A stretch of DNA of 64,000 bases from Thelephora terrestris. Lineage: Eukaryota > Basidiomycota > Agaricomycetes > Thelephorales > Thelephoraceae. Positions 23,346 to 45,209 of this stretch are shown here, piece after piece (the first letter of the stretch is position 1; each line of letters begins with the position of its first letter). Under the pieces are notes generated by a model. It was given only the letters and a program-made list of their open reading frames with translations, had not been told where the DNA came from and searched no databases. The position numbers and the translations under genes were made by a program. The stretch is taken from positions 3,038,001 to 3,102,000 of the forward strand of contig WIUZ02000002.1 in assembly GCA_015956445.1 (NCBI GenBank). Direction: 5' to 3'.

Positions 23346-25126
23346 ACACCCATATCATCGGGAACGATTTCGACGACACTAGGCTCACCATACCACTGCG
23401 ACCCACAAAGAGGATGTGTACGGTAATGGATTTGCCTCACTGTACTGAAACAGGGGAGAGCGATGTAGGGGTTGCGCGTGTATGTACTTTAGATAGAAAC
23501 ACATCGGTTTCGTAGTAGATAGAGTCGCACTTGGCAGACTGCTATATCACACATATGGAGGCCCAGCGTTTGTCATTGACAACGCCATTCCGGACGTTTT
23601 CGTATACCTCGCAGATGCTCCAGTTCTGGACAGCGCGATGGAGTTCGTTGACTAGATTTGAAGACCTCCAGAAGAGGTTCACCCTCGGGGTTCTGCCTCG
23701 GCGGTCACAAACTCGAAGTTTTACTAGTACATTCCAGGGTAACGATCACAACTAGTTTATATTGTAAATAGGTCACGACATTTGACGTTGGTTACTGTAT
23801 CGCTTTTCTGGGAACCCCCACGGCAAACGGATAAAGTAACAAACATCGGTGGGACACGCCGAGAAAGCAGGAGGCAGACATGGAGTAGAAGAATAAAAAC
23901 CATAGTTCCCTACGCCGAATTGTGGTAATAGCAAATCTAGCTTTTTGTTTAGCTTGTCGATTTTGCATTCTAGACCGTCGAGGCGCTGTTGTACAAGGCA
24001 GGTGCCGCCCCCCAATCGTGCCAGAATAAACTCTTCGGATTGCACTCGGTCTTGAGCTGGGAATCAAAGATCTGATGAGCACGACGAAACCAGCCTCCGA
24101 CTCCAGCCCCCCAGTCATCTATGCTCCCGTAGGTAGCCCCCTATGGCAGGGGGGGTCCGGTTGAGCGGTAGCGCAGGTTGGCCTGCGATGACCCCGTGCC
24201 ATCGGGAATCCAATAAAGGAAGAACCGAGTCGACGCTCCTGGGGGCCAATAGTCAATAACTGGATACGAGCAACCAAAACCCGCAGAACGCACTGGAAGA
24301 TCGCGTGTGGCACGAGAACAGGCGACTTCGCGGAAGCTCAGGCCGTGTTTACTCCCCGTGTTGAGCAAGGCAGCGTTGCGTGAGACCTCGGTCCTGAGTC
24401 GACGACTCGCAGAGAGGAGGTGAGGATGAGGAGACCATGGTGAGTGCAGAGATGTGATAGACAGAAGACTCGATACGGAAAGCGTTTGAGAGGCGACGTT
24501 TGGTGAGGATTTCTACGCCCAAAACAGCGCAGTATTTATAGAAATCCAGAGGTGGGTGCCCCGCGACCATGGAAATAAAGGGATCGCTGAGTACATGGCT
24601 GTTCCTTTTGATCAACCGGAGAGAAAAGACAACGCCACGGTGCAGAGCCTCTGGAACAAGACATGTGCATGAGCGACAATCTTTTGTGGGATCGACGACA
24701 TGACCGTTGGAACGCAAGGACCTGCTTGCCCGGTGTCATGTCAATTGGGGTTAAGTGCAGGGCCTTCACCACGGTTGTGGTGTGTGGTGCATACCGAACC
24801 GTGCAGGAACATACCACTGAGTGACCGTGCCGTGCGGTTGTCCTTGATCGTTCCCCCATTCAGAGGTAGGCTTTGGCAACGGGCCATAGGCTCTATCTCT
24901 CTATCCTTAAGCTGGAAGGTCTCGTAGGCCGGAGTGGATCGTCTTCTACCGGATACTCGCTCTGTTCCCACCAATTCGTGAACTACACATACGCCGGGTT
25001 ACGCGGCTGCAAATGCTGGCACAGTGGCATATCTTGTCTGTCCTCTGGTTGGATATCGGAAGTATATCGGATAGTGGCGTCTAGAACGAATCGTCGACGC
25101 CCATATCTTCCTGCGCATGATAAGCG
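23346..25126. other. Long region without a supported gene, before the left NLR arm
   Basis: Short frames occur on both strands but I recognise none of them. The inverted-repeat arm begins near 25127, so the promoter of the first NLR-like gene lies partly in the arm and partly here. Confidence 0.4.
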
Positions 25127-25244
25127 CTTGCACGGGCGTGCCACGAGAGAATCACCGCCCATCTACAACGTGTTGGGGCTAGGGTTCTTCCTTACAGCCC
25201 CCTCGTCCCGTACCACTTTCCCGCAACCACCTCCAGCTTGTACG

Positions 25245-28200
25245 ATGGCCACAAACCCACAACAACCGAGAGAGCGGGACGGTGTTGTTACCACCTTAAA
25301 TGTGTTCATCGAAGCTTTCACTCTTGCGAAGGAGATCTCGAGCATCACACCCGCCAAGGCTGTTTTTGGCTCGGCCGCAGTAATCCTGACGACGATCAAA
25401 GTGCGTTGCTTCCTATTCCACGCGACAGCGAGCTTACGGCTCGCCTTTGTCATCCAGGAATTCTTCGCAAATCAGCAGGACTACATCGATCTCGGGCAGA
25501 ACTGCGTCGAGATCTGTTGTGTCCTGGACCGGGGAACGAAGGGGAAAGGAACTGAGCAGCTAAGCCAGCTTGTGCGAGATGCGATAAACCGGCTCGAAAC
25601 GTGGGTTGAACCAACGGTGCACGGGTTAGATAGTTGACTGATGATGCTCGCTATCTCAGAACTGTGGCGGAGATCGAGAGGAAGGTCAAGGAAGAGAGCA
25701 AGCGCAATGTAGCCCTTCGCCTTCTCCACGCGAAGAGCGACAAGGACAAGATCGCGGGCTGGGCGTCGGATCTCAACAAGATCCTCCAGATCTTCAACGT
25801 ACGCTGTGTCGCTCCCCCGCTTGCTTCGCTGACCATCGGTTTCCAGACTGAACTTGCAATCGATACCAATGTCGCGGTTTCTGGCACTTACAACATCGTT
25901 TCAGGCACTCACAATATTGTTTCTGGTACTCACAACATCGTTTCGGACACCCAAAATGTCGTTTCGGACACCCAAAATGTCGTTTCGGACACCCACAACG
26001 TCGTGTCCGACATCCGTCGGATAGTGGCAAAACAGCAAGAAGCGTCCGATGGTCAGGATCCACTGGTAAGCAACCGTGATATTCTTTTCGTCACTAGCTG
26101 ATATATACCCTTAACATTGCCTAGACTCACAGAAGGTTAGTTCCAATTTCATCACTAAGACACCCGGTGTTTAACGTTTGCATTTAGTGCACGCGGAGAA
26201 TCCCCCCCGCGACCCCCGAGGGCGTGTTTTGGACGCGATGAACTAATCGACAAAGTCGTCGGTCTCGCTGAAAACCTCGAACCGGTGGCGCTCGTAGGTG
26301 CCGGGGGGATTGGCAAGACGTCCATCGCGTTAAAGGTCCTCCATCACGATCGGATCAAGAAACGGTTTGGCGACAACCGTCGATTCATTCGCTGCGACAA
26401 GTTTCCAGCGTCTCTCCCCCACTTTCTCAATCGACTCTCAAAGGTCATCGGCGCGGGGATCGAAAACGCTGAGGATTTGACTCCCCTAGAACCGTTTCTG
26501 TCTTCGAAGGAGATGATCCTCTTTCTCGACAACGCCGAGTCGGTCCTTGACCCGCAAGGGACGGACGCGCGGGAAATTTACGAAACGGTGCAGGAGTTGA
26601 GTCGATTCAGCAACATCTGCCTTGGCATTACCTCCCGCATCACCACCGTTCCCCCACACATCAAGCGTCCGACTATCTCCACGTTATCAGCAGAGGCGGC
26701 GTGCGACATCTTTTACACCATCTACGAAAACGGTGGACGGTCCGAGGTGATTAGTGACCTCATCAGACAGCTGGACTTCCACGCGCTCTCGATCACGCTG
26801 CTCGCAACCACCGCATCTCACAACATGTGGGATTACACCCGGTTGGCCGAGGAGTGGAACGTCCAACGGGCGCAGGTGCTCCAGACGGATTACAATGAGA
26901 GCCTGGCAGCGACCATAGAACTCTCCCTTGCTTCGCCAACATTCCGCAAGCTTGGCCCCCACGCACGTGACCTCCTCGGAGTCGTCGCTTTCCTCCCGCA
27001 AGGCATCAACGAGAAAAACCTGGACTGGCTGTTTCCCACCATCCCTAATAGGAAGAACATATTCGACAAATTCTGCATCCTTTCTTTGACATCCCGAAGC
27101 AACAACTTCATCACTATGTTGGCGCCGATCAGAGACCATCTTCGTCCCCAAGACCCAAAACTATCCCCGCTCCTCTGCGCGACCAGGGATCACTACTTCA
27201 CCCGGTTGTCAGTCTTTGTTAAAACCGGGGAGCCTGGTTTTGAAGAAGCACAATGGATTTCGTCAGAGGACGTGAATGCTGAGCACTTGCTCGATGTCTT
27301 TACATCTATCGACACAAACTCGGACACTGTTTGGGTTGCCTTTATTGGATTTATGAGGCATCTGTATTGGCACAAAATCCGGCATACTGTGCTTGGGCCA
27401 AGAGTTGAAGGGCTTGCGGATGACCATCACTCCAAACCGAGATGTTTGATTCAGCTCGCTCGATTGTCTTACTCGCTTGGGAATTACTCGGAACAGAAGC
27501 GGCTTCTTTCCCAGGCCCTAAACCTCGTGAGGGAGCGGGAGGATGACCCTCAGGTTGCTTACGTGTTATACCTCCTGTCCGATGCAAATAAGGCACTAGG
27601 CCGCCACGAAGAAGGAATACAACAAACGAAGGAAGCATTGGCAATTTACGAACGGCTCGGTCACACAATCTACCAAGCAAGTTGTTGGGATGATCTTTCC
27701 CGGTTGTTCCGTTTGGAGGGACGACTCGACGAGGCAGAAGAAGCGGGATTACACGCGATTGATCTCCTCCCGGAGAAAGGCCAAGAATTCTATCTCTGTC
27801 AAACTCATCGAAGTCTCGGTTCAATATATGGTGCCAAGAGGGAGAAGGAGAAGGCAATTGACCATTTTGAGAAAGCCCTCGGAATCGCGTCTACTTTCGG
27901 ATGGCGTGATGAACTATTTTGGATTCATTACTCCCTCGCAGCTCTCTTCACAAATGAAGGCGAGTTCGACGAATCACATTCTCACATTGATCAAGCCAAG
28001 TCGCACGCAGCTGACGACGCACACAACCTCGGTCGCGCGATGGAGTTGAAGGCTTATATCTTCTGTCGACAGCGCCATCTTGATGATGCGCTCTCTGAAG
28101 CTTCGGGTGCTCTCGAGATCTACGAGAAGCTTGGGGCATCAACGGACATAGTGGATTGCAAAAATAGACTCAAGGAGATAGAACGAGCAATTGCCGGTGA

Positions 28201-28299
28201 GTTTCCGAACGTTGCACTGTTTCTTGTTCCGATTAAACAACATTCTCAGCGCGCGATGCGCCATCCAGTGGTCTAACAACTGCCTCTCCAAGTCACTGA
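25245..28299 (+). CDS. NLR-like STAND ATPase with TPR repeats, copy 1
   Basis: Predicted 908-aa protein; exons 25245-25400, 25458-25600, 25660-25798, 25847-26065, 26125-26135 (11-nt microexon), 26188-28196 and 28250-28299. Residues 1-146 are a helical N-terminal region rich in Ala and Val, typical of mushroom NLRs and possibly related to MLKL/HeLo-type helical bundles (inference). Residues about 157-201 are a heptapeptide array (units like NIVSGTH). A Pro/Arg linker leads to the nucleotide-binding domain: Walker A GAGGIGKTS near 260-268, Walker B ILFLDNAES near 333-341, sensor GITSR near 370, and HALSITLLA in place of the plant GLPLAL motif. The C-terminal third has about six TPR-like repeats, for example KEKAIDHFEKAL. 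Fungal NLRs sense non-self or stress and can trigger regulated cell death. The ligand here is unknown. Both copies keep an open frame. Confidence 0.85.
25877..26011 (+). repeat. 21-bp tandem array encoding heptapeptides (copy 1)
   Basis: About six and a half units of 21 bases, each starting near GTTTC(T/G)G. They encode VSGTYNI, VSGTHNI, VSGTHNI, VSDTQNV, VSDTQNV, VSDTHNV and VSD. Two adjacent units are identical at the DNA level. The unit is one amino-acid heptad, so expansion or loss of a unit keeps the frame and the helical register. Confidence 0.9.
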
Positions 28300-28681
28300 C
28301 CCCATTTCCTGTTCATGGACACAACATTCTCCATCCCCGTTTCTGTCCCTTGTTTTCCCCAATGCGATTTTCGATTGTATGGCCGACCCCCTGCACACAT
28401 TTCCCCCTGCTTTGTCGTTTCATAGCTTGCCTTCTGTAACGGCCAATTCTATGTCTTCCCCGCTGTATCTTGTTTGCTTTTTACGTTTGTGATTTAACTG
28501 CCTGTAATTTTTCGAGGATCTGGCTCTTTAACTTAATTATCAAAGGTTGATTTGTGTTTCGTGAATCCAGCCTTTGTGGATCCTCCTGCCGTCCATATCA
28601 AGATTCGACAAAGCCCTTGGTCAACATACACAAACAACACGTCCCTCTTGGCTTCATCGCCCCGTATCTTTTAATTAAACA

Positions 28682-29850
28682 ATGGCACCTCTACCATCTG
28701 CTAAACGACCTGCCTCCGAGACGTTCACTTCAACTTTCAATAAAACATTATATCAGGTGTGGCACTGCGTTTTTCCCGGACACTACCCAGACGAAGATAA
28801 TTCCTGGAATCTTGACATCTTTTGTAAAGCCAAAATTCTATCCCTCTCTTGCAAGCTCTGTCACCCAGACTGACGGGCTGTCCCCGAAGAAACTACATGT
28901 CAAGCAGCGGTCTACTCAGTTTTACCTTGTTGGTGTCGATGCCTCCATTGCGAATGCTTTCCGACGGATACTCATAGCTGAGGTAAGGTACGTCCACCCC
29001 ACTTCTCCGAACGGAATTTATTTATTTCCTCGTCGTATACCAGGTCTCGACAATTGCTATCAAACACGTATACGCCTGGGACAACACGTCCGTAATCCAA
29101 GACGAGGTCCTTGCTCAGCGAATCGGTTTGGTACCACTGGACGTGGATTCTTCGTACCTCGAATTTCAATCTGCCTTGCAAGACCAAGCAGCAGATCGCC
29201 ACACGCTTGTGTTCAGATTCGACGTCACATGTACGCGGAAACCTCAAGCTGCATCAGCTCGCAGAACGAAGAAAGCTGAACCTGAGCCAGGGGGGATCTA
29301 CAACCACTCGCTTGTCATGTCGGGAGACTTGAATTGGGAGCCTCAGGGCGAACAAAGCGAAGGGCTCGCATCCAATCCACCCCGTTCGACGAACGAAAAC
29401 ATTGTACTTGCCAAGTCGCGACCGGGCTAGGAAGTCCATGCGAAAAAGGGTGTCGGTACAGAACACGCATAGTGGAGTCCAGTTGGTCAGTATCTGCCGG
29501 TGTTTCCTGCGACATCTTACTAATTGTAACACCAGCTACCGCCACAAACCACCTCCTGCCCTTGGTGATACTCAACCCCGAAAAACCCGTCCTCCACAGC
29601 ACACATAGAAATTTCGGAAGCGTTTCTCTCCAGGCGTCATCGACGTTGATCCCGTCACGAAAGCGGTGAACGAGGAGAATCGGCGGAACGAGACCATGAG
29701 CAGGGAGGTTCTCCGACACAAGGAATTCAAAGGTTGCGTCGGGGTCAGGCGTACGAGAGCGCTTGCCATCAGATCTAGCAGTTCCAGTAGTCCTCGGTGG
29801 CTCCACGTCCTAGGGGTCTGCGTCTCTATCATAAGTGGGTGAAAGGATGG
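28682..29850 (+). pseudogene. RPC40: Decayed copy of RNA polymerase I/III subunit AC40
   Basis: The sequence encodes clear AC40/RPAC1 blocks: FPGHYPDEDNSWNLDIF, LVGVDASIANAFRRILIAEV, HVYAWDNTSVIQDEVLAQRI with GLVPLDVDSSYLEF, NENIVLAKSRPG, then WSPV and later FSPGVIDVDPVTKAV and NETMSREVLRHKEF. Two in-frame TAG codons interrupt it. The first (29428-29430) stands where family members have Gln in RPGQE, and the second (29470-29472) where they have Lys in HAKWSPV. The frame also changes between the exon ending about 29605 and the FSPGVID block, and the last third no longer matches the family. The N-terminal block is in a different frame from the middle block and no clean intron joins them. Because AC40 is essential, an intact copy should exist elsewhere. 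Introns are still visible, so this is a DNA-level duplicate, not a retrocopy. Confidence 0.82.
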
Positions 29851-31783
29851 ACGAGTTGAGAGGGATTTGTGGAAACTCCTTTCGACGTAGGAAAAATGAG
29901 CGACTATGGAGGCAATTCGCATTGGAGAACCCATTGGCCCTGATGCGCCCGAGGAGCCACCAGAGCGGCGTGGCGTAGGTCATACCAGGGGCCTTCGCTG
30001 GTCTTCGTCGCCAGAACCGCCTGCTAACTTATAAACATGCCACCGCTACGATCACGGATGTTGCCGATTGCCGAGCCCCGCCAGGTTCCGAAAAGACTTC
30101 CGACCATGTGGCCGTGTGGGACTCGCGCCGGGTGGAATTGGCGGACTACGTGGGCCCAGACGATATTCAATGAACGGTCACGCATGTCAAGTGGCTCGCC
30201 TCGGTGCGTGTCCACGATCCTTGTCGATCACAGCTCCTCTCGCTGTCCCGAAGTGCAGTATGCCTACTTGCAAGGAAGCGGACATCGCGGTCCCCATGTG
30301 CGTTTCCCGCATTTCCTTTAGGTCTCCTGGAATGTACATTGAGTGCCTCCTGAATTTCACCGGGTTACCGGGTGTTAGCGTCGCTACCGCTATCTAATAG
30401 ATCGCTACACCGGATGACCCGACTGCCGCTCAATTAACAAACTCATCGACAAGGAAATCACCCCCCTCCACCGCCATGACTCGTGGGCCTCGGCGCATCG
30501 CTTTTTAATGTGTTCCCCGCGTACTTATCGCATTCGCAAGTGAAAACATTCCACCTATTTCTCCATCAGCAAAGGCCATCGTATTCTTGATAACATCCAA
30601 CGTTTCAAATTTCACCTTCCACCTGCGTAGGTCATCCCACTGCCCCTTTCGTACGCTTCTAACTTACCTTCGGGATAGCATGCGTCGGCGTCGCCTTTAT
30701 TGATAGGACTGACCAGTGTCTTTCCTCCCTTGTCAACTCTTTGGTTCTACATGTTCTCGCCTATCCTCCGGCTTTTGGTCTGGGTGTGGAGCCTCCCGCA
30801 GCCCGCGTCATGGGATAGCCACCTCATGGCATCGAAGGGGGCGTCTTCACCATTCACATCGTCATCGCTTCCATACCGTCTTGCTATGTAGCGATCGCGT
30901 TCGTTCGGGGAAGCTACTAGTGCGATCGTGACCTGGGAAGCAGTGCACCCGCGCTTATCCCGATGGTGATTGCATTTGCGCGTTTCGTGCCCGCTCGAGC
31001 ATGACCGGTGACCCCCGGAATGCCCTCCCACAAGGTCTTGTGCGCGAACAAACAAGAGTCCTTCCTACGCGGTGACCGTCGGGGTGTACAAAATACCTAT
31101 CCGTCCTAGGCCCTGGCTCGAATATTAGGTCATGGAAATGGATTTGCCCCATCTGGACAGTGCTCGAACGACACCGGAAATACTGTCTCCGAACATGGAA
31201 AGTGACTTACGAAGCCTGAACAGGGCGAAGTCCCCGGTCACGACGTGGGAAAAACCCGGTTTCTCCGTTTTCTTCCACCCTACTCGTAAAAGTTGCTGTT
31301 GGCATCTCGTGTTACGCTTCGCGTATATTGCCATTCTTCATTAGCAGGCGAACTCGCTCGCCTACATCGACCCGATTCTGGGGCAAACTCTGAGTCCAGT
31401 TCTACGGCTCCTTCATTTCCCTCACATGTGTGCCGCCGGATCTATCCTCGAACATGTCGCGGTCTGGGAAACGCTACATTTATCACGAGGCTTTTGTTTG
31501 AAACCACCTCAAGCTCATCAGTGTCGCCCGAACCCTCTCTTAAACAAACTCTTCTGGACACATGGAATCAAACAACGAACTAGAGACGATCAGCAGCCAG
31601 CCTATGTCATCAACGGATTTAAATTCATGGCCCGGGTCTGTTGCACAAACCCGTGTGTATGACGCGGAACTTCGTCAATCAGTACTCAGTACTCAGTGCT
31701 TATAAGAGGTGGACTCCTTATTTTTTCTCCCCTCCTTACGCTAGCCCTCGAGATCCCCCCCTCCGGCCCAACAAATCTGACTC
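29851..31783. other. Region without a supported gene between RPC40 remnant and membrane protein gene
   Basis: The longest frame here, 109 codons at 30068-30397 plus, is Cys/Pro/Arg-rich and has no motif I recognise. Other frames are short. It may be further decayed DNA from the rearrangement that placed the RPC40 copy here, or simply intergenic sequence. Confidence 0.35.
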
Positions 31784-33082
31784 ATGTCTGACAACTCGCA
31801 AAATTTCTGGTCCAATGATTCGTATGCTCCACATATCTCATCCCGAATCCACTCAGATGAGAAGATGATTTTTGTCGGATACGTCTTGGGCTCAATATTC
31901 TACGGTATGCCGACCCACGCAACTGTGCTCAACCTCTCTCTCTGATCTGCCATTCAAGGGTTCGTCATAGTGCTGTTCTTCCGATGTCTGGGGACGTTGC
32001 TCAATCCCGTCGGTCGCACGAGAGGGGGCATCAAATGGGGATTCGTGGTCCACACTACGGTCATGCTCTTGGCTGTAACGGTGTACAATGGGGCCAACCT
32101 TAGCCTTCAATCCCTTTCCTACGTTGATAACCGAGAATATCCTGGTGACAATGGCGGTTTCCCTGGACCTTTTGCTTACGAGTTTGCCATCATAAATAAG
32201 CCAATCTCTTTCATTCCCTCCATCATGTTCATCTTGAATTTCTGGCTAGCCGATGGCCTCTTGGTAAGTCCTTTTCCAAATCCAGTCGCCCAGCTGCCTA
32301 ATATGCGCCTTTAGCTCTATCGCTGTTTTATCCTTTATGCCATGAACTACTGGGTCATCGTCTTCCCATGCTTGATGTACCTCGCCTCTTTGGGTACGTG
32401 CTCGACTCCTCCACAATCCGACGGTGACATCTTCGGTTAACGTGATTGGTACAGCGATGGGTATTGGTTTCGTCTACCTGGGCTCAGTGCCGCAAACCTT
32501 ACTCTTGGCGCGCTACTTCACCTTTGCCGACTTCGGGACGGCGTATTATTCGATGTCCCTTTCGCTCGATGTCCTCCTCACGCTCATGATCGTGGCAAGA
32601 ATCATCCTACATAGCAGGGGTTTCCGAAAGACCATGGGCTCCTTGGCAAACCCGGATAGATTGTACAAGACCGTTGTCACCATACTTGTCGAGTCTTGTG
32701 CCCTTTACACCGTCAGCTATCTGCTATTTCTTGGCCCGTGGGCGTCCAGTAGTCCCGTTTGTGATGTATTTTTCCCAATGCTCGCCGCAAACCAGGTCAG
32801 TGCTATTTTTACATTTCCCTGACGCTCCGTAGGACGTCGTTATCATCTAATCGTGGCAAACAGGTTATCGCACCATACCTCGTCATTCTGCGAGTTGCTA
32901 ACCGGAGCGCGTTGACGAGCGATACGATTGCCTCTGGGGTGACCGGCTCGCTTCATTTCGCAAGTCAAGCAAGTTCGACGGACAGTAGTGGGACCCTTCC
33001 TGCCGAATATTCGATGAGTTCGACGGAGATGGACGGAGAGGCTACTGACGAGGCTGGTGTCGGAGTTGCATACTGCGATTGA
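31784..33082 (+). CDS. Multi-pass membrane protein (basidiomycete-type, uncharacterised)
   Basis: Predicted 354-aa protein; introns 31905-31958, 32264-32314, 32394-32454 and 32796-32863, exon sum divisible by three. About seven hydrophobic helices are visible, among them MIFVGYVLGSIFYGFVIVLF, GFVVHTTVMLLAVTVY, FIPSIMFILNFWLADGLLL, VIVFPCLMYLASLAMGIGFV, TVVTILVESCALYTVSYLLF and PYLVILRVANRSAL. The tail after the last helix is Ser/Thr/Gly-rich and acidic. The layout (seven helices, short N-terminus, disordered C-terminus, NRSALTSDTIASG-like stretch after the last helix) is common among small membrane-protein families expanded in mushrooms. Their function is unknown. Receptor function is only a guess. 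Confidence 0.82.
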
Positions 33083-34675
33083 CCAGATTTCGGGATGATG
33101 GGACTCCCCCCCAAGGGTTGTTGTATGCTCGTTACCTCGTTGTAGTCGTGGCTTTCCGTCTTCTTTGCATTTTTACCGCTTTCATTAGATTCCGAAGAAT
33201 TCGTCGAGCGTTTTCTCCCCGGACTCCAAATCCTGATACTCGCCTTCGTATATTGGGTACCGTAGACATCGCATCTTTCCCATTCGTTTGTTCGTTTTTT
33301 TTTTGCACCATCTCGCGTTCGAGCCAAGTGGGTCCAACCTTTCGGAAGCCCTCAGTTTTGTGATTCCGAGTCCCCGAAGATGCCGATCCGGAGTCTCACC
33401 GGGTGCCTGATCGTTCCCCGTCGACAGCCTACAGGGCTTTCGCTGAAAGTTAAACCGACCAGGATGCATGACCCGATCCCCAACAGTATCAAGGAAATAT
33501 CGCTACGGGGTTTACTCCCTCTCCGATGTCATCATGTATGCTCCCGTCTTTCTTTCTCGCTTCCAGGAGGAGAGGTAGGAGGCAGCTAGCCTTGGTCCGC
33601 ATAGTGTCTGCAAGTGGGGCGAATTCGTTCCGCCGGCGGGGTACCCTGAAACTCAAAATTCATGTGCGAGGAGTTAATCAACACCTCAGGCCTCAGGTTC
33701 AGAGACAGTTGGAGTTGGTCGCGAAGGAGATCGCTCGGAGTAGGAAGAAGACGGTCCTTGACATGTCTGCCAGCTGTGTATTCCGGACCGAAGAAAGCCG
33801 GGGGCACGTTGGAGGGACGTGTCTGTCGGATTCTTGACATCTGCGAGACTGGCAGCATCGCCGCTCTTAGGAAGGAAATTCGTCGGAGTCCGCTAACTAT
33901 CCGCAGACCAGGGCTTCCCTGGTCACTGTTGGAGAGGCTGACTTCTGTGCTAGTAGTTGATACTTCTCTCGTCTGTATGTTTTTGCGTGTGTTATGGGGT
34001 CTCTAGTGAATGGTCATTGGGGGCCCGTAATTTCGCTTCCGCCCTCGAGCGGAGCGGCAGCCTGCCCTAAAGTGAATGGTGCACGAAAACGCATGCCCGA
34101 AGATTTTCCTCATCTTTTAACAACTACGCAGGCACAACTTCCACATGGGGGCTGGTCGTCTCTGCGAAGAGTGGTGGTCGAACTCTCATCGTTTGTGCCT
34201 CAGATGGACCGGCGCGCCTTTGGCTGCTTTTCCTGACCTGTTGGACTGTGCAGTCACCTAGCGTGCTTACATGTATTTCTGGTTTAGGATCTTTCAGAAC
34301 CGTAGCTTGGATCTCGAATATGAGTCTCCCATGTTGTACGCCCTTGACCGGTGGCCTATTGATCGTGTGTGAAGGAGGCCGAGAGCCAAATCGGCATTTC
34401 TCTTGAGTGATATTGAGCCGCAACCGAATTCCTAGCCCATCAAGTTCTTTCGGGATCTCGTCTATTCCTCCAAACGTTTGCCCCTTGAGTTTGGCGTTCA
34501 CCGCTTCCTGTGCAGGCCTGCGAACACAACGAGTGGTGTGACCAATCCTGGACCAAGCCGATGCTTACCACGCGCGCGTCTATGACTTAGACCCCGTTAA
34601 CCGCCACGATCGACTCGCACATTTCCCTCCGAGCCAGTTTCACGACCACGACGCGCCCCCATTCCACTTCCGCTC
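33083..34675. other. Region without a supported gene upstream of CHM7
   Basis: Several open frames of 80-125 codons overlap on both strands. The most protein-like is on the minus strand (34124-34501, see findings). None shows a known domain or splices to a neighbour in a way I can support. The last few hundred bases should contain the CHM7 promoter. Confidence 0.35.
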
Positions 34676-36294
34676 ATGTCCACTGGCATCAAGTACACGG
34701 ATCTCCACTCCCTACCGGCATACAACATATCTTCTACATCCCGACTCAAGTCCCTCTACTCCGATGTCTCTCGCCAGAAGCACTCAAATCCTACTTCGTA
34801 CCGGTCGACGGTCCACTGGTGGCGCGAAGTCCTGCAGGCGGTTGTATTGAAGCACTGGTTGCCACAATCCTCCGACACCTTGGTCCTCCACGCACTTCCT
34901 ACTCTAGCTGACTCGTTCCGATACGAAGGGGCGGGAAAGCCGCTCTGTCTGGCCACAGTGATCGTGAGTTCCGCGCGCCACAGTATTCTCGATCCCAAAC
35001 GCTAATGCGGACCTAGTAAAGTCTGAACTTCATGAAGAGAAAGCGTACATTCCCCTCAATCAGTTCTTGACCGCGACACAGTCGATATACGACCCTGGGT
35101 GGCTGCCGTATCGAATCGCAAGCTACGTCATTGGAAAGCCCCTTTTGTGGGCTCTTCAACAAACTGGCGCAGTGGGATCAGGTGATGTTATCGAGAGTGA
35201 TACACAGAGGTGGAAAAGGGTGAAGGGTGACTACGTCTTGCGAGATTTGGTCGAGTCCGCAGCCCAAGGCATCTTGGCCCACCAACGGACGAAAGAGAGC
35301 GGGGCGTACGCCGAAAAGCTCTACACCGTCGAATCCTTTAAGAGAGAGTTCTCGAGCGCTGCTCTCCCCGATGTCGTTCTTTCCGACCTGGATTTGAAGG
35401 TCTTGGTGAAACACTTGGAGCGTGATATGAGGGTCGTCGTTGTTGACGGGAAGGTGGCGACACAACCTCTTACACAACTGTCCTATACTAACGACAGCCT
35501 TTTAGGTGATCAAATTCGTTTATGAAGATACGGATAATCAAACGATTACTGCTGTCGATAGCGGCTTGTTGGAGCTCAAGAACGCTGTGCAGAATCTGAA
35601 TATTCAGATCGAATCGATACAAGCCCAGATAAAAGAGTAGGCTGAATTTGACTCAGTCGCGCTTACCGCTGACCCTCTCGTTAGGCGGACAGAGAAGGCG
35701 TCTTCTGCGTTGAAACAAAACCGTAAAGAGATTGCATTGGGTCATCTCAGGGCTAGGAAACAACTCGAAGACATGCTGGTCAAACGTTCCAAGGCTCTGG
35801 AAAACCTAGAGTCCACGCTCTGGACCGTCGAGCACGCCGCCGGAGATGTTGAGGTAATTCCACACCCTTGCTCGAACTCCTTTGACACGCAAGTTCTAAA
35901 CACTTTCTTGAAGCTCATGAAACTCTACGAATCTTCCACCGTAACCCTCCGCACGATCCTCTCCCACCCATCTCTCCAACGCAACAAGATCGACGAAACG
36001 ATGGACGCGTTACACAGCGCGACTGAGGATGCGAAGGACGTGGATTTGACGATTCGCTTGGCTGGCGAGGCGGAACAGGCGGCGACTATCGATGATGACG
36101 AGATCGAACGCGAGTTGCGCGCTTTGGTGCAAGACGCTGAGAACGAGAAGCTTGCGGCTCAGGAGCGGGCAGCGTTGGAAGACGTGAAGGAGCTTGAGGG
36201 AAGGCTTGGGGAGGTAAAGGTACCTGCGGACGTCCCGAGGGCGGTTGATGATCGGGAAAGAGATGCAGAGGTGGCAATGGGTGTTCGCGCTTAG
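34676..36294 (+). CDS. CHM7: ESCRT-III-related protein Chm7/CHMP7
   Basis: Predicted 466-aa protein; introns 34964-35021, 35454-35505, 35637-35684 and 35854-35913, exon sum divisible by three. The N-terminal half (about 1-230) is a degenerate winged-helix/ESCRT-II-like region with VHWWREVLQAVV and the conserved RWKRVKGDYVLRDLVES-like segment. The C-terminal half is a helical Snf7 domain: ELKNAVQNLNIQIESIQAQI, a basic helix ALKQNRKEIALGHLRARKQL, LENLESTLWTVEHAAGDVE and a charged tail with DDEIERELRALVQDAEN. Chm7/CHMP7 recruits ESCRT-III to the nuclear envelope for sealing and quality control. The distinctive combination of an ESCRT-II-like N-terminus and a Snf7 domain separates it from Snf7, Vps20 and the other small ESCRT-III subunits. 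The gene lies inside the inverted NLR pair. Confidence 0.88.
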
Positions 36295-36578
36295 AAGGTT
36301 CCCGGATATTCTGTAGCAACCATGGAAATCTACCGTCGTCTGCCACCACATACACACCTGTTGTGTCGATTGGGGAGCGCCTTGGGTGCCTCTGACGAAA
36401 CCTAACTAATTCTAAGCACATCGGACCTCACGATCCTGAAAAACCTCGGACGAGGTCCCAAATTCTTCTGATTATCAGATGTCCACCTGTAAGCAACAAA
36501 TATCTAATGGGGTCTGAATCTGACCATTTCGATCCCCCCCTCTCCTCTCAGGTAATAAGCCAGGCTATGGGGACGATC

Positions 36579-39500
36579 AATGAAGCCGAGTGGGACGCGT
36601 TGTTTGTGTATGTTGACAAAGGCTTTGTCGAAACTTGATACGGACGGCGGGAGGATCCACAAAAGCCGAATTCACGAAATCCCAAATTATTCATCGATAA
36701 GAATGCCAAAGAGCCAGATCCTCAACAAATTACAGGCAGTCGACAGCAAATGTAAAAAGCAGACAAGATATAATGGTAAAGACATAGAATTGGCCGTTAC
36801 AGAAGGCAAGCTATGAAACGACAAAGCAGGGGGAAAGGTGTGCAGGGGGTCTGCCGTACAATCGAAATCACATTGGGGAAAACAAGAGACAGGACGAGGA
36901 TAAAGGACGTTGTGTCCATGAACGGGAAATGGGGTCAGTGACTTGGACATGTAGCTGGTGGACCGCTGGATGGTACATCGCGCACTGAGAAGGTTGGTTA
37001 ATCGGAATAAGAAACAGTGCAACATTCAGAAGCTCACCGACAATTGTTTGTTGTATCTGCTCGAGAAAACCTTTGCAGCGCACTGTGTCCGTTGATGCCC
37101 CAAGCTTCTCGAAGATCCCAAGGGCACCCAAAGCTTCAGAGACTGCCTCTTCAAGCTGGTTTTCTCGATACAAAATATCAGCCTTCCACTCCATCGCGCG
37201 ACCGAGGTAGAGTGCGTTGTCAGCTGCATGCGACTTGGCTTGATCGATGTGAGAATGTGCTTCGTCGAACTCGTCTTCATTTGTGAAGAGACCTGCGAGG
37301 GAATAATGAATAAAAGATAGTTGATCGCGCCATCCGTAAGCAGACGCGAGTCGAAGAGCTTTCTCGAAATGGTCAATCGCCTTCTCCTTCTCCCTCTTGG
37401 CACCATATATTACTCCGAGATTTTGATGAGATTGACAGAGAAGGTATTCTTCTCCTTTCTCCGGGAGGAGTTCAATCGCGTGTAATCCCGCTTCTTCTGC
37501 GTCGTCAAGTTGTCCCTCCAAATGGAACAACCGGGAAAGGTCTTTCCAACAACTTGCTTGGAAACTTTCGTTACCGAGCCGTTCATAAATTACCAATGCT
37601 TCCTTTGTTTGTTGTATTCCTTCGTCGTGGAGGCCTAGTACCTGGTTTGCATTGGACAGGAGGAACAATGTGTAAGCAACCTGAGAGTCATCCCCCCGCT
37701 CCCTCGCAAGCTTCAAGGCCTGCGAAAGACTCCGCTTCTGTTCCGAAAAATTCCCAAGTGCATATGACAATAGTGAGAGCTGAATCAGACATGCCGGTTT
37801 GGAGTGATGGCCATCCACAAGCCCTTCGACTCTTGGCCCAAGCACAGTATGCCGGCATTTGTGCCAATGTAGATGCCTTAAAAAGCCAATGCAAGCACCC
37901 CAAACTGAATCCGAGCTCGTGTCGATGGATGTGAAGACATCGAGCAGGTGCTCAGCGTTCACGTCCTCTGAAACAACCCATCGCGCTTCTTCGAAACCAG
38001 GCTCCCCGGGATCAACAAAGACTGACAACCGGGTGAAGTAGTGATCCTTGGTTGTGCAGAGGAGTGGGGATAGCGATGGGTCTTGAGGACGAAGATGGTC
38101 TCTGATCGGCGCCAACATGGTGATGAAGTTGTTGCTTCGGGATGTCAAAGAAAGAACACAGAATTTGTTGAATATGTTCTTCCTATTAGGGATGGTGGGA
38201 AACAGCCAGTCCAGGTTTTTCTCGTTGATCCCTTGTGGGAGGAAAGCGACGACTCCGAGGAGGTCACGTGCGTGGGGGCCAAGGTCGCGGAATGTTGGCG
38301 AAGCAAGGGAGAGTTCGATGGCCGCTGCCAGGCTCTCGTTGTAATCCGTCTGGAGCACCTGCGCCCGTTGGACGTTCCACTCCTCGGCCAACCGGTTGTA
38401 ATCCCACAAGTTGTGAGACGCCGTGGTTGCGAGCAGCGTGATCGAAAGCGCATGGAAGTCTAGCTGTCTGATAAGGTCACTAATCACCTCGGACCGTCCA
38501 CCGTTTTCGTAGATGGTATAGAAGATGTCGCACGCCGCCTCTGCTGATAACGTGGAGATGGTCGGATGCTTGAAATGTGGGGGAACGGTGGTGATGCGGG
38601 AGGTGATGCCGAGGCAGATGTTGTTGAACCGACTCAACTCCTGCACCGTCTCGTAAATCTCCCGCGCGTCCGTCCCCTGCGGGTCAAGGACCGACTCGGC
38701 GTTGTCGAGAAACAGGATCATCTCCCTCGAGGACAGAAACGGCTCTAGGGGAGTCAAATCCTCAGGGTTTTCGATTCCTGCACCGATGACCTTCGAGAGT
38801 CGATTGAGAAAGTGGGGGAGAGACGCTGGAAACTTGTCGCAGCGAATGAATCGACGGTTGTCGCCAAACCGTTCCTTGATCCGATCGTGATGGAGGACCC
38901 TCAGCGCGATGGACGTCTTGCCAATCCCTCCGGCACCTATGAGCGCGACCGGTTCGAAGTTTCCAGCGAGATTGACAACTTTCTCGATTAGTTCATCCCG
39001 TCCAAAACACGCCCTTGGGGGTCGAGGGGGGGATTCTCCGCGTGCACTAGATGCAAACATTAAGCACCGGGTGCATCAGCAATGTAATTGAAACGAACCT
39101 TGCGTGAGCCTAGGAAAAGTTAAGGATATATTAGCTAGTGACAAACGGAACATATCAGTTGCTCACCGGTAGATTCTGACCATTGGACGCTTCTTGCTGT
39201 TTCGCTATGGTCTGGTGGATGTCGGAGAGGAGGTTATGAGATTTTGAAACGACATTTTGGGTTTCTAAAGCGACATTGTGGGTATCCAAAACAACGTTGT
39301 GAGTACCAGAAACGATGTTTTGAACGCCGGAAACGATGTTGTAAGTGCCGGAAACCGCGACATTGGTATCGATTGCAAGTTCAGTCTGAAAACAGATTGT
39401 CAGCGACGCAAGCAGGGGAGCGACACAACATACGTTGAAGATCTGGAGGATCTTGTTGATATCCGACGCCCAGCCCGCGATCTTGTCCTTGTCGCTCTTC

Positions 39501-40117
39501 GCGTGGAGAAGGCGAAGGGCTGCATTGCGCTTGCTCTCTTCCTTGACCTTCCTCTCGATCTCCGCCACAGTTCTAACATGGCGAGCATCATCAGTCAGCT
39601 ATCTAACCCGTGCACCGTTGGTTCAACCCACGTTTCGAGCCGGTTTATCGCATCCCGCACAAGCTGGCTGAGGTGTTCAGCTTCTTTCCCCTTCGTTCCT
39701 CGGTCCAGGACACAACAGATCTCGACGCAGTTCTGCCCGAGCTCGACGTAGTCCTGCTGATTTGCGAAGAATTCCTGGATGACAAAGGCGAGCCGTAAGC
39801 TCGCTGTCGCGTGGAATAGGAAGCAACGTACTTTAATCGTCGTCAGGATTACTGCGGCTGAGCCAAAAACAGCCTTGGCGGGTGTGATGCTCGAGATCTC
39901 CTTCGCAAGTGTGAAAGCTTCGATGAAGACATTCAAGGTCGTGACAACGCCGTCCCGCTCTTTTGGTTGTTGGGGGTTTGTGGCCATCGTCGAAGCTGGA
40001 GGTGGGTGCGAGAAAGTGGTACAGAACGAGGAAGCCGCGAGGAAGGAACCTACATAGCCCTAACACGTCGTAATACTAAATGGGCGGTGATTCTCTCATG
40101 GCACATCTCGTGCAAAC
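36579..40117 (-). repeat. Right arm of 3.5-kb inverted repeat
   Basis: Reverse-complement counterpart of 25127-28659. It carries the second NLR-like gene with identical exon lengths. Outside the gene it keeps recognisable similarity for about 360 bases beyond the stop (down to 36579) and about 130 bases before the start codon (up to about 40117). Outside these limits the flanks differ. Confidence 0.88.
36935..39987 (-). CDS. NLR-like STAND ATPase with TPR repeats, copy 2
   Basis: Predicted 908-aa protein, exactly as long as copy 1. Exons 39832-39987, 39632-39774, 39434-39572, 39167-39385, 39099-39109 (11 nt), 37038-39046 and 36935-36984; all seven exon lengths equal those of copy 1. Walker A GAGGIGKTS, Walker B ILFLDNAES, sensor GITSR and HALSITLLA are all intact. 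The heptapeptide linker has the same number of units but is more varied (NIVSGVQ, NVVLDTH, NVALETQ, NVVSKSH, NLLSDIH). Differences from copy 1 are mostly conservative in the N-terminal and nucleotide-binding regions and denser in the TPR part, for example around residues 600-760. That fits a conserved signalling module with a sensor part free to change. No stop or frameshift interrupts it, so it appears to be under selection or young. Confidence 0.85.
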
Positions 40118-40264
40118 ATAGCCCCTGCGATCCAATGATCGTGCAGACTCTGCGTTCCGTCGCTGTTCCAATGCCTCCTCCACTTCCACTTTATCCCGTC
40201 AAAGTTGCTCCCAGACCTCCAGACACTAACTTTTGCCCTCGCGGGTTGCAGTGCAAAAATGAGC

Positions 40265-40368
40265 TGCTCCCTGCCAGGTTCGAACTGGCGATCTTCGGAT
40301 TGCTCCTGGAAATCCAGGCTCACAGACTAAATATGAGACCGACGCTCTACCGACTGAGCCAAGGAAGC
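40265..40368 (-). tRNA. tRNA-Met(CAT), intron-containing
   Basis: The minus strand reads a complete cloverleaf. The acceptor 5' strand GCTTCCT pairs with AGGGAGC (one T-G wobble), followed by discriminator A. The D-arm is GCTCAGTCGGTAGAGC. The anticodon stem-loop TCGGTCTCATA is interrupted after the base 3' of the anticodon by an intron of about 31 bases and resumes ATCCGA. The T-arm is GCCAGTTCGAACCTGGC. The anticodon is CAT; the sequence resembles elongator rather than initiator tRNA-Met. Intron position 37/38 is the canonical site for nuclear tRNA splicing. Confidence 0.93.
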
Positions 40369-40557
40369 ATTATGGAGTGGTCCTTTATGACTTTATCATT
40401 TCGTTTATTGCGCCGTCGCATTCTCAACAATAACCCGAACCAAGTAGTGAAAAGCAAGAAATCAAGGAAACATGGTGAGGCTCCCAGGTGAGTTTAAGAC
40501 GCTTACGAGAACCAGTCCCAACGAGGATAAACCCAAAGGGGTGCCCAAAACCAGTTC

Positions 40558-43173: not shown

Positions 43174-45209
43174 TCACTTATCCTCAGCCCCAAGGACCTC
43201 TTTCGCCGTCGCACTCTCTGGAACCTTCTCAGCTTCATCACGAATCATCTCAAGCTGTTTCCCAACATCGGTAGCCTTGTTTTCGACTTCCTGCTTCACG
43301 ATGCCATTGGCGCCGGACTTTTCTAAGCATTTACCCACCATCCCGATCCACTTGAGATGACCCTCAACACCTTCGCACTTGACGTTCTCGATGCCCATCA
43401 CCTGCACCGGTGCTAGACCGGCCACACCCCAAGATCCTTCGGCCAGCATCGTCGCCCGACTGAGGATAGCCAAGACGTAATCTTCCTCCGGTTCCACCCA
43501 CCCATTGACAAGCCTACCCGAGACTACGGATCGAACCTTCTTCCAGGATGCAACGTCTCGTGTCGATGTCGGTAGTCCAAACAGATAAGCGCTGTCGATT
43601 AAGTGTGTGGTTTGTGATGAAGGGAGGGAGGAAAGGTATTTGAGGGCTTCGAAGATGACGAGAGAGCCGAGGGAATAACCCGTCAAGGTAACAGGTCGAG
43701 TTCCAAGAACCCGCTGAGATAGCAGGATTCCTAGCACTCGGCCTGCCTTTACTGCTAATGCTTGGGCGTTGGACCAGGGATTGTCTTTATAGTTTAAATA
43801 AGTCAGTTTTCGGTCCCTCAGAAAGATGCCGTTCGTTTACCCACCAATGATCTTTCCTATTTGTAGATATGCCACAGGAGAAAGGGATGCAAACAAACTC
43901 GCGAGAACGGTTCGCCTGATGATCTCTTTCTTGATATAGCCTACCGCCTTATCCTTGAGAAGCGCAACCAGCGCATCTGAGAGCTCGAGCAAAGCGTCCA
44001 CCTCCCACTGCAGAGCGAACGTGTCTTGGCTCTCGTCAAAGAATTTCCACGGGTTAACCACATCATCCTTGACGTTCAGCCACCCGCTCACACAGAGCCG
44101 GATGGCTAGGGTATCTTTTGGCGGATAAACCGGGACAATCGCGAGATCATGCACGTCCTTCGTGTGTCTCCCGATCATTGTGGACGTCCGATGGGCCCCA
44201 TACGCCCCGAATAGGGAACCACAGACGACGGATGAACCAGCCAAGGCTGTTACCAGAATGCCTGCAGCAGTCCCCCCAAGGCCAACGGCTCCGAGAATGG
44301 CTGAAAACCCCGCTCCAACTAATGGAGCAGCTGGAACAAGATCGGTCAGGCGCTGAGAAAGGCTAAGGTGCGTGAGGACATCATACCCAAGCCTCCAGTC
44401 ACCCCAATCAAGACCCCACCCGCAACCGCACCAGCTGCCATGCCAGCCGTCCTCCAAGCAGCTCCAGCCTCAGCTTGCTGATCCTTTGCGGCGTCTGCCT
44501 CTTTCTGCGCCTTTTTCAGCACATCGTCGGGGTTCTTTAAGGTGTGAACGATTGCACTCTCGTCCACGGTACCGATACGTGGGAGGAATGCACGTGTGCG
44601 CGCGGAATAACCCTTCGCTGAGGCAATATGGATGAGGATGACCGCGGTCAAGATCTTATCCAACTCTGGCTTAGGTGGGAGAGCTGGGAGGGAGGACGTC
44701 GTGGTGTCGTTATCGTATTCGATCTTTGGACATTGCTCTACAACGGTTCGTCAGACAAGACCGGTTCAGGCTGGAGCCTGAGAGCAATCGGTACAAACCT
44801 GGATCTCTAACGGTTGTTGCAGTCCACAAGGTTTTCAATAAATCATTTGCCCAAGCGTCGATTTCAGGATTCTGTTTCTCGTATGCCCGTACGTAGTATA
44901 CTTGGCATATGTTCCTGTAATCTGCGAGGTGCCTATAGGCGTGCTCGAATACATTTGCAGTTGATTGCTCTTCCTGTGTATCTGGCCTACCGCAAACGGT
45001 ATCGCATGGGGCATTGTTGGAAAAGAGGTTCAGCGAGACCATAGTTAGATGTGGTTGTGGAGAGAAAGACTAGGATAGGCATACTTTGACGATGCAGTGG
45101 AGTGGGAGATGGCCAGGATCGAGCCACGGGCCGCGATCGCTGATCCGTTCTGGGCCAGCGCCTTCGGGTTCTTCAATTCCGAAAGGTAAAAACGGGCAAC
45201 TCTCGACAT
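43174..45209 (-). CDS. TMCO4/DUF726-family membrane-associated alpha/beta hydrolase
   Basis: Multi-exon gene beginning MSRVARFYLSELKNP. The N-terminal helical part contains DKILTAVILIHIASAKGYSA, the DUF726 region. A Gly/Ala-rich double hydrophobic stretch follows: AGMAAGAVAGGVLIGVTGG joins across a 56-base intron to LAAPLVGAGFSAILGAVG and TAAGILVTALAGSSVV. The C-terminal half is an alpha/beta-hydrolase with nucleophile elbow LTGYSLGSLVIFEALKYL and DSAYLFGLPTSTRDVASWKK, then VVSGRLVNGWVEPEEDYVL. This order (helices, glycine-rich membrane segment, hydrolase) is that of animal TMCO4 and fungal DUF726 proteins, including yeast Mil1, which binds the AP-1 adaptor at the trans-Golgi. The catalytic Ser is kept; the substrate is unknown. 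It converges with the phosphatase gene, 91 bases from stop to stop. Confidence 0.83.

Follow-up and report, generated by a model that had tools for sequence, protein, structure and literature searches.

The DNA analysed here, hereafter the window, is a 64-kb stretch of the genome of Thelephora terrestris, an ectomycorrhizal basidiomycete, and the subject of this report is a pair of genes encoding NOD-like receptors (NLRs) that lie tail to tail within it. A self-BLAST search for internal repeats returned a single off-diagonal match, on the minus strand, pairing the two segments that we call arm A and arm B (Table 1) at 88.4% identity over 3543 columns; they are separated by a gap of 7.9 kb and the whole inverted structure measures 15.0 kb. 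Each arm carries one gene of seven exons, with lengths of 156/143/139/219/11/2009/50 nt in both, encoding 908 amino acids (aa). The introns are likewise equal in length save intron 4 (59 nt in A, 57 nt in B), every one of them is GT-AG, and neither frame holds an internal stop. The homology between the arms takes in 117 bases before the start codon in A and 128 in B, and continues for 358 and 355 bases, respectively, beyond the stop codon. A first-pass annotation of this DNA had described two full-length STAND/tetratricopeptide repeat (TPR) genes of NLR type, equal in coding length and exon lengths, keeping their Walker A, Walker B and sensor motifs and open frames in spite of many differences between the arms, with homology running past the gene ends; all of this description is borne out.

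Our gene models were compared with 12 public proteins. The arm A model is identical across its 908 aa to BJ322DRAFT_435798, and public models also coincide with ours over the compared length for four further copies of the family (L009, L011, L012 and L017), while that of L016 is 7 residues shorter and those of L014 and L018 are 17 longer; for L010, L013 and L015 no match over 97% was found among the 12 proteins compared. In arm B the public model (BJ322DRAFT_436311) has 711 aa, retaining intron 1 and ending early in the TPRs through a different splice. We prefer the 908-aa model of B because it keeps an open frame, proper splice sites and constraint, and to judge from their sequences both genes look intact and alive.

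Table 1. Features of the window, with positions counted from its first nucleotide
Feature	Position	Strand	Basis and remarks
Arm A	25128..28657	+	Extent set by match to arm B
Arm B	36580..40115	-	Extent set by match to arm A
NLR gene A, 908 aa	25245..28299	+	Gene model from sequence; identical to public protein P0001
Gene A exons	25245-25400, 25458-25600, 25660-25798, 25847-26065, 26125-26135, 26188-28196, 28250-28299	+	Gene model
NLR gene B, 908 aa	36935..39987	-	Gene model from sequence; differs from public P0008
Gene B exons	39987-39832, 39774-39632, 39572-39434, 39385-39167, 39109-39099, 39046-37038, 36984-36935	-	Gene model
N-terminal helix bundle, predicted MLKL-like, residues 1-146 (exons 1-3 of A)	25245..25798	+	Predicted model; homologue P0126
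Linker of A (exon 4), 21-bp (7-residue) tandem repeat, length varying in 21-nt steps among copies	25847..26065	+	Sequence, copy comparison
Linker of B (exon 4), same kind and length, different repeat units	39167..39385	-	Sequence
Walker A codons (GAGGIGKT) of A	26297..26320	+	Sequence
Six TPRs of A, residues 640-886, diversifying selection at concave positions	27437..28179	+	Predicted model, codon test
Upstream stretch of A common to L009, L011, L012 and L013, not to arm B	24889..25127	+	DNA match between copies
RNA-polymerase-subunit-like fragment with stop codons, also beside L009 and L010	28769..29897	+	RNA_pol_L match 28920-29006, E 1e-4
Part of central Snf7-type gene copied on contig C8	34730..35062		93% identical copy
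Snf7 (ESCRT-III type) match	35641..36291	+	E 1.3e-8
Intron-bearing tRNA-like gene	40263..40369	-	ARAGORN Ala(AGC); manual loop reading CAU
Two adjacent open frames with DUF726 matches	43174..44466	-	E 6.5e-35 and 6.9e-31

Both proteins are built of a helix bundle of MLKL-like appearance, a linker of 7-residue repeats, an NB-ARC-type switch and six TPRs. GAGGIGKT, MILFLDNAE and ITSR, which we take to be Walker A, Walker B and a sensor-like motif, are present in A and B, and each protein has the nucleotide-binding switch expected of a STAND/NB-ARC NLR; in the predicted model its fold is ZAR1-like (PDB 6j5t). The top Foldseek hit was PDB 6mfv, to which the full chain is only distantly similar (TM-score 0.28 by query length, 15% identity). 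A full-length fold search barely probes the N-terminus, and a second model was made on a homologue; on these predictions the N-terminal bundle reads as MLKL-like. The C-terminal repeat sensor is equally evident (TPR_12, E 5.2e-16; six helix pairs in the predicted model). Its repeats are far diverged, with a mean identity of 18% within arm A, and the exon that bears them measures 2003-2012 nt in all 12 modelled copies. A query with bundle and linker matched 42 proteins of 120-260 aa; none of the nine examined could be shown to be a complete stand-alone effector, and no amyloid profile was run. A bundle-only gene on contig C8 had been considered as a signalling partner and was dropped, as this fragment (L019, C8:837133-837650; N-terminal NLR exons, 91% identical, introns kept) begins mid-exon and contains a stop.

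The linker is encoded by exon 4 (residues 147-219), the sole exon with large differences in length. When the exons of arm A were projected through the DNA alignment, exon 4 measured 114, 156, 177, 177, 198, 198, 219, 219, 240 and 261 nt in ten close copies, all of them 21n + 9, and 111 nt in L018; in L015 (C1:755000-764500) the projected region has 1017 nt and many stops, which would fit an insertion interrupting its linker. The repeat unit approximates S-(G/D/N/E)-T-H-N-(I/V)-V. Relatives were sought at the protein level and the best 120 of 4670 matches were retained, giving alignments A1 (119 proteins, the truncated P0008 being dropped), A2 (51) and A3 (43). Both anchor residues are present in 65 of 119 relatives; among these every class modulo 7 is represented in linker length, and many of the linkers are short. 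Thelephora ganbajun proteins among these best 120 matches are about 53-55% identical; the same pair, which the first-pass annotation had proposed to look for in related species, was not seen in orthologous form among them in this search, made with proteins only.

Codon, conversion and tree tests were run on ten of the 12 modelled copies, L015, with its interrupted exon 4, and the distant L018 being dropped. Between A and B the ratio of nonsynonymous to synonymous rates (dN/dS) is 0.39 overall; it is lowest in the nucleotide-binding (NB) part (0.145) and the bundle (0.158), and rises through about residues 471-640 (0.296) and the linker (0.519) to 0.676 in the TPRs. This partition by domain, a check proposed in the first-pass annotation, gave no sign that one copy is dead. 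Ratios of means over the ten copies, without correction for transition bias, are 0.41 for the bundle, 0.14 for NB, 0.26 for residues 471-639 and 0.65 for the TPRs, and dN exceeded dS in none of the 45 pairs for any of these four parts. A one-ratio codon model of the TPRs gave an omega of 1.01 (kappa 3.1). The codon mixture test, which sets omega <=1 against omega free on FastTree branch lengths with a nonparametric omega mixture and is not codeml M7/M8, yielded a 2dlnL of 143.0 for the TPRs, placing 39% of sites at a mean omega of 2.8; none of 95 null simulations reached this value (maximum 14.1), and it was 137.9 without L013 and 17.2 with the four C12 copies only. Elsewhere 2dlnL was 4.96 (NB), 4.7 (471-639, with 9 sites over 0.95 posterior) and 8.0 (bundle); simulation covered the TPRs and the bundle, so that the NB and 471-639 values are uncalibrated. 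As the bundle value lies above the maximum of 6.0 in 100 simulated runs, a small signal of selection is present in the bundle too.

The selected sites are clustered on one surface. Taking positions 2, 5, 9, 12 and 13 as the concave ones, following Magliery and Regan (PMC1261162), selected sites make up 15 of the 30 concave positions and 11 of the 204 remaining TPR positions (Fisher 3.4e-9), counted as far as residue 873, so that 4 of all 30 sites above 0.95 fall outside the count. By helix, the selected sites occupy 22 of 98 positions in helix A and 2 of 98 in helix B. When the TPR numbering is shifted by -3, 14 of those 15 concave sites remain, as one helix face would lead one to expect, and it is therefore the face that is shown, not the exact register; positions 33 and 34 of that paper are not notable in these TPRs. 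Across the 119 relatives the eight most variable TPR positions are 6, 9, 13, 12, -1, 2, -2 and 5, and the mean entropy is 2.76 bits at the five concave positions against 1.39 elsewhere in the TPRs. The comparison of codons shows a conserved switch and a concave TPR groove under strong diversifying selection. A and B themselves differ at 15 of 30 groove, 45 of 204 other TPR and 26 of 357 switch positions, and with a groove diversifying under selection the two receptors would be expected to recognise different ligands.

The 40.6-Mb genome carries no fewer than 128 loci that share this NB domain, a lower bound given by the loci scored out of 216 first-look candidates; in 5 of them a stop interrupts the matched stretch, and assembly duplication may account for a few. 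In 18 of the 128 (16 on C2, one each on C5 and C45) the NB match is split in two near query residue 230-250, which would fit a subfamily with an additional intron or insertion at that point. Among 60 pairs of neighbours within 20 kb, 51 lie on the same strand, 6 are convergent, A-B included, and 3 are divergent; with 9 of 60 inverted, we do not regard the inverted layout as unusual in itself. Arm A is matched best not by arm B but by L002/L009, a copy lying about 90 kb from it (C12:2970734-2974293); C12 carries another copy, L010, at 2887659, and C1 a cluster of relatives at 0.70-0.92 Mb. Over 3229 gap-free columns of the ten copies, identities are 0.916 for A-L009, 0.891 for A-L010 and 0.881 for A-B, B being 0.893 identical to L009 and 0.879 to L010.

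The extent of the copied DNA points the same way. Arm A matches L009 across window positions 24889-29897, L009 having about 0.5 kb of additional sequence, and the 3.5-kb unit proposed by the first-pass annotation accordingly bounds only the match between A and B, the unit shared by A and L009 being larger. Included in the latter, and outside the A-B match, is a piece resembling an RNA polymerase subunit, presumably AC40, which also has matches on C1. Since stops interrupt the copies beside A and L009, it is an apparent pseudogene passenger, and for the same reason we abandoned the idea that this gene, adjoining A, L009 and L010, supplies a guarded protein or decoy. Exchange among copies was examined by permutation of shared runs at variable sites (45 pairs, 2000 permutations). 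The observed run was reached in none of the 2000 permutations for 6 of the 45 pairs; the longest join L010 with L013, on different contigs (85 variable sites, in the TPRs), and arm B with L009 (78 sites). The longest exact stretches measure 222 nt (L010-L013), 198 nt (arm B-L009) and 159 nt (L009-L010). Uneven constraint along the gene makes shared-run tests liberal, and we therefore place weight on the extreme tracts only; these indicate that copies exchange sequence, with no preference of arms A and B for each other.

Taken together, these data are best explained if A and B, both intact, belong to a very large sensor-switch-executor NLR family that diversifies its TPR groove, their convergent orientation being incidental, a reading to which we assign a probability of about 0.7. 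The first-pass annotation had instead seen a palindrome-like structure whose inverted arms could pair, convert each other or invert the centre. The corresponding rival is a functional palindrome, a local inverted duplication kept alike by arm-to-arm gene conversion and with an 8-kb centre able to flip. The similarity of the inverted arms and their equal exon lengths are what such a structure would leave, and the A-B shared run has an uncorrected p of 0.01; sister arms fail over the whole gene (approximately unbiased (AU) test, p 0.0093) and over the TPR plus 3' part (p 0.0016), A and B share at most 81 nt without a difference, eighth among the 45 pairs, the block that A has in common with L009 and L010 is larger than that in common with B, and the longest tracts join other partners. 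We retain the palindrome, as a very improbable explanation, because the N-terminal (AU p 0.26) and NB (0.42) parts, neither of which alone rejects sister arms, do not decide. Somewhat less improbable, though still unlikely, is that one arm is a relic or that arm B yields only the publicly annotated product, from which most TPRs are missing. The upstream DNA shared by arm B extends over only 128 bases, with the tRNA-like gene lying beyond it, which would fit such a case; against it stand the 908-aa model, in which every frame and splice site is intact, and the private codon changes of B in the NB plus winged-helix part, 0 nonsynonymous and 5 synonymous (3 and 8 in A).

Two further questions concern what the proteins do. 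The linker might form a beta roll or amyloid-like solenoid assembling the receptor by stacked beta structure: residues 150-209 of A match Pfam LbR_Ice_bind (PF21300, a grass antifreeze beta roll) above the cut-off (E 8.4e-11), as do 6 of 51 relatives, PDB 3ult is matched by sequence (E 8.1e-5), and amyloid-like motifs are described between the MLKL-like domain and NACHT-TPR, at the bundle-switch junction, in five Fibularhizoctonia proteins (PMC9815663). The predicted model has no strand in the linker, albeit at low confidence (pLDDT <50 at 151-223), while in a T. ganbajun homologue with a shorter linker the last bundle helix is predicted to extend through it (116-188); I, V or L occupies the third repeat position in arrays of T. 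ganbajun and environmental relatives, and in all four arrays tested the hydrophobic moment is larger at 102.9 than at 154 degrees, the 51-degree term being as large and separating nothing. A coiled-coil stalk is favoured and the beta roll appears quite unlikely. As for biological role, incompatibility or defence is a guess by analogy. That the receptors serve self/non-self (heterokaryon) recognition, not detection of bacteria, viruses or damage, is a possibility worth keeping, though the less probable one: in its favour, known incompatibility genes figure among fungal NLRs with selected repeat domains (PMC4986451); against it, a family of at least 128 loci would not by itself single out allorecognition.

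Other features of the window lie outside the arms (Table 1). The 8-kb centre includes a Snf7-type gene, part of which recurs on C8 about 2.3 kb from the L019 fragment; the tRNA-like gene is situated about 0.15 kb upstream of arm B; and two adjacent frames with DUF726 matches lie further along.

In such a family each receptor would most likely combine the three roles itself: ligand binding on the concave side of the TPRs would release the switch, the released protein would oligomerise, and the clustered N-terminal bundles would act on a membrane, so that the hyphal compartment is killed or arrested. Copies would spread as DNA blocks and swap tracts by ectopic gene conversion. It is tempting to speculate that the heptad array is a length-tunable coiled-coil stalk whose copy number, shifted in 7-residue steps by slippage of the 21-bp minisatellite and by exchange between paralogues, sets co-assembly or ease of firing, receptor identity then being groove residues plus stalk length; we regard this extension as rather doubtful. 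With its 128 or more NLR loci of a single type, and with selection on their predicted ligand-binding face, this mycorrhizal fungus is a good system for asking what fungal NLRs detect, and the named groove residues are direct targets for mutation, the inverted arrangement itself carrying no special weight. Should the length of the linker prove important, fungal receptors as well as plant RPW8/HR proteins would have taken up variable repeats behind a bundle of MLKL-like type, and a tunable stalk, if true, would be the in-receptor fungal counterpart of the RPW8/HR repeats. A literature search on T. terrestris NLRs and on fungal coiled-coil, heptad or copy-number NLRs, covering few subscription journals, retrieved no report of this family or of variable heptad linkers.

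Several known systems share parts of this architecture. Among the closest are the basidiomycete MLKL-like (BaMLKL) NOD-TPR receptors of Wojciechowski et al. 2022 (PMC9815663), in which a single agaricomycete protein unites a nucleotide-binding switch and TPRs with an MLKL-like bundle that has an additional helix at its N-terminus; here, by contrast, a heptad array varying by whole repeats joins bundle and switch, and membrane action is a prediction. The TPR NLRs of Podospora anserina are likewise under positive selection at concave TPR positions, but their repeats are almost identical to one another and variable in number (Dyrka et al. 2014, PMC4986451), whereas ours are six, diverged, and held in an exon of nearly constant length. 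The predicted switch resembles that of the ZAR1 resistosome NLRs, with a TPR sensor in place of the leucine-rich repeats, and the STAND ATPase with a TPR sensor in PDB 6mfv shows the same switch-TPR order despite its distant full-chain match. The most unusual feature is the variable heptad array, probably a stalk, behind the putative MLKL-like bundle, which recalls plant RPW8/HR proteins, where a variable number of short repeats directly follows an MLKL/HET-S-related bundle (Barragan et al. 2019, PMC6684095). Those repeats, however, have 14 or 21 residues and form the C-terminus of small proteins acting with a separate NLR, whereas the Thelephora repeats have 7 and lie inside the NLR itself; the likeness that we propose is therefore one of resemblance, not of homology.
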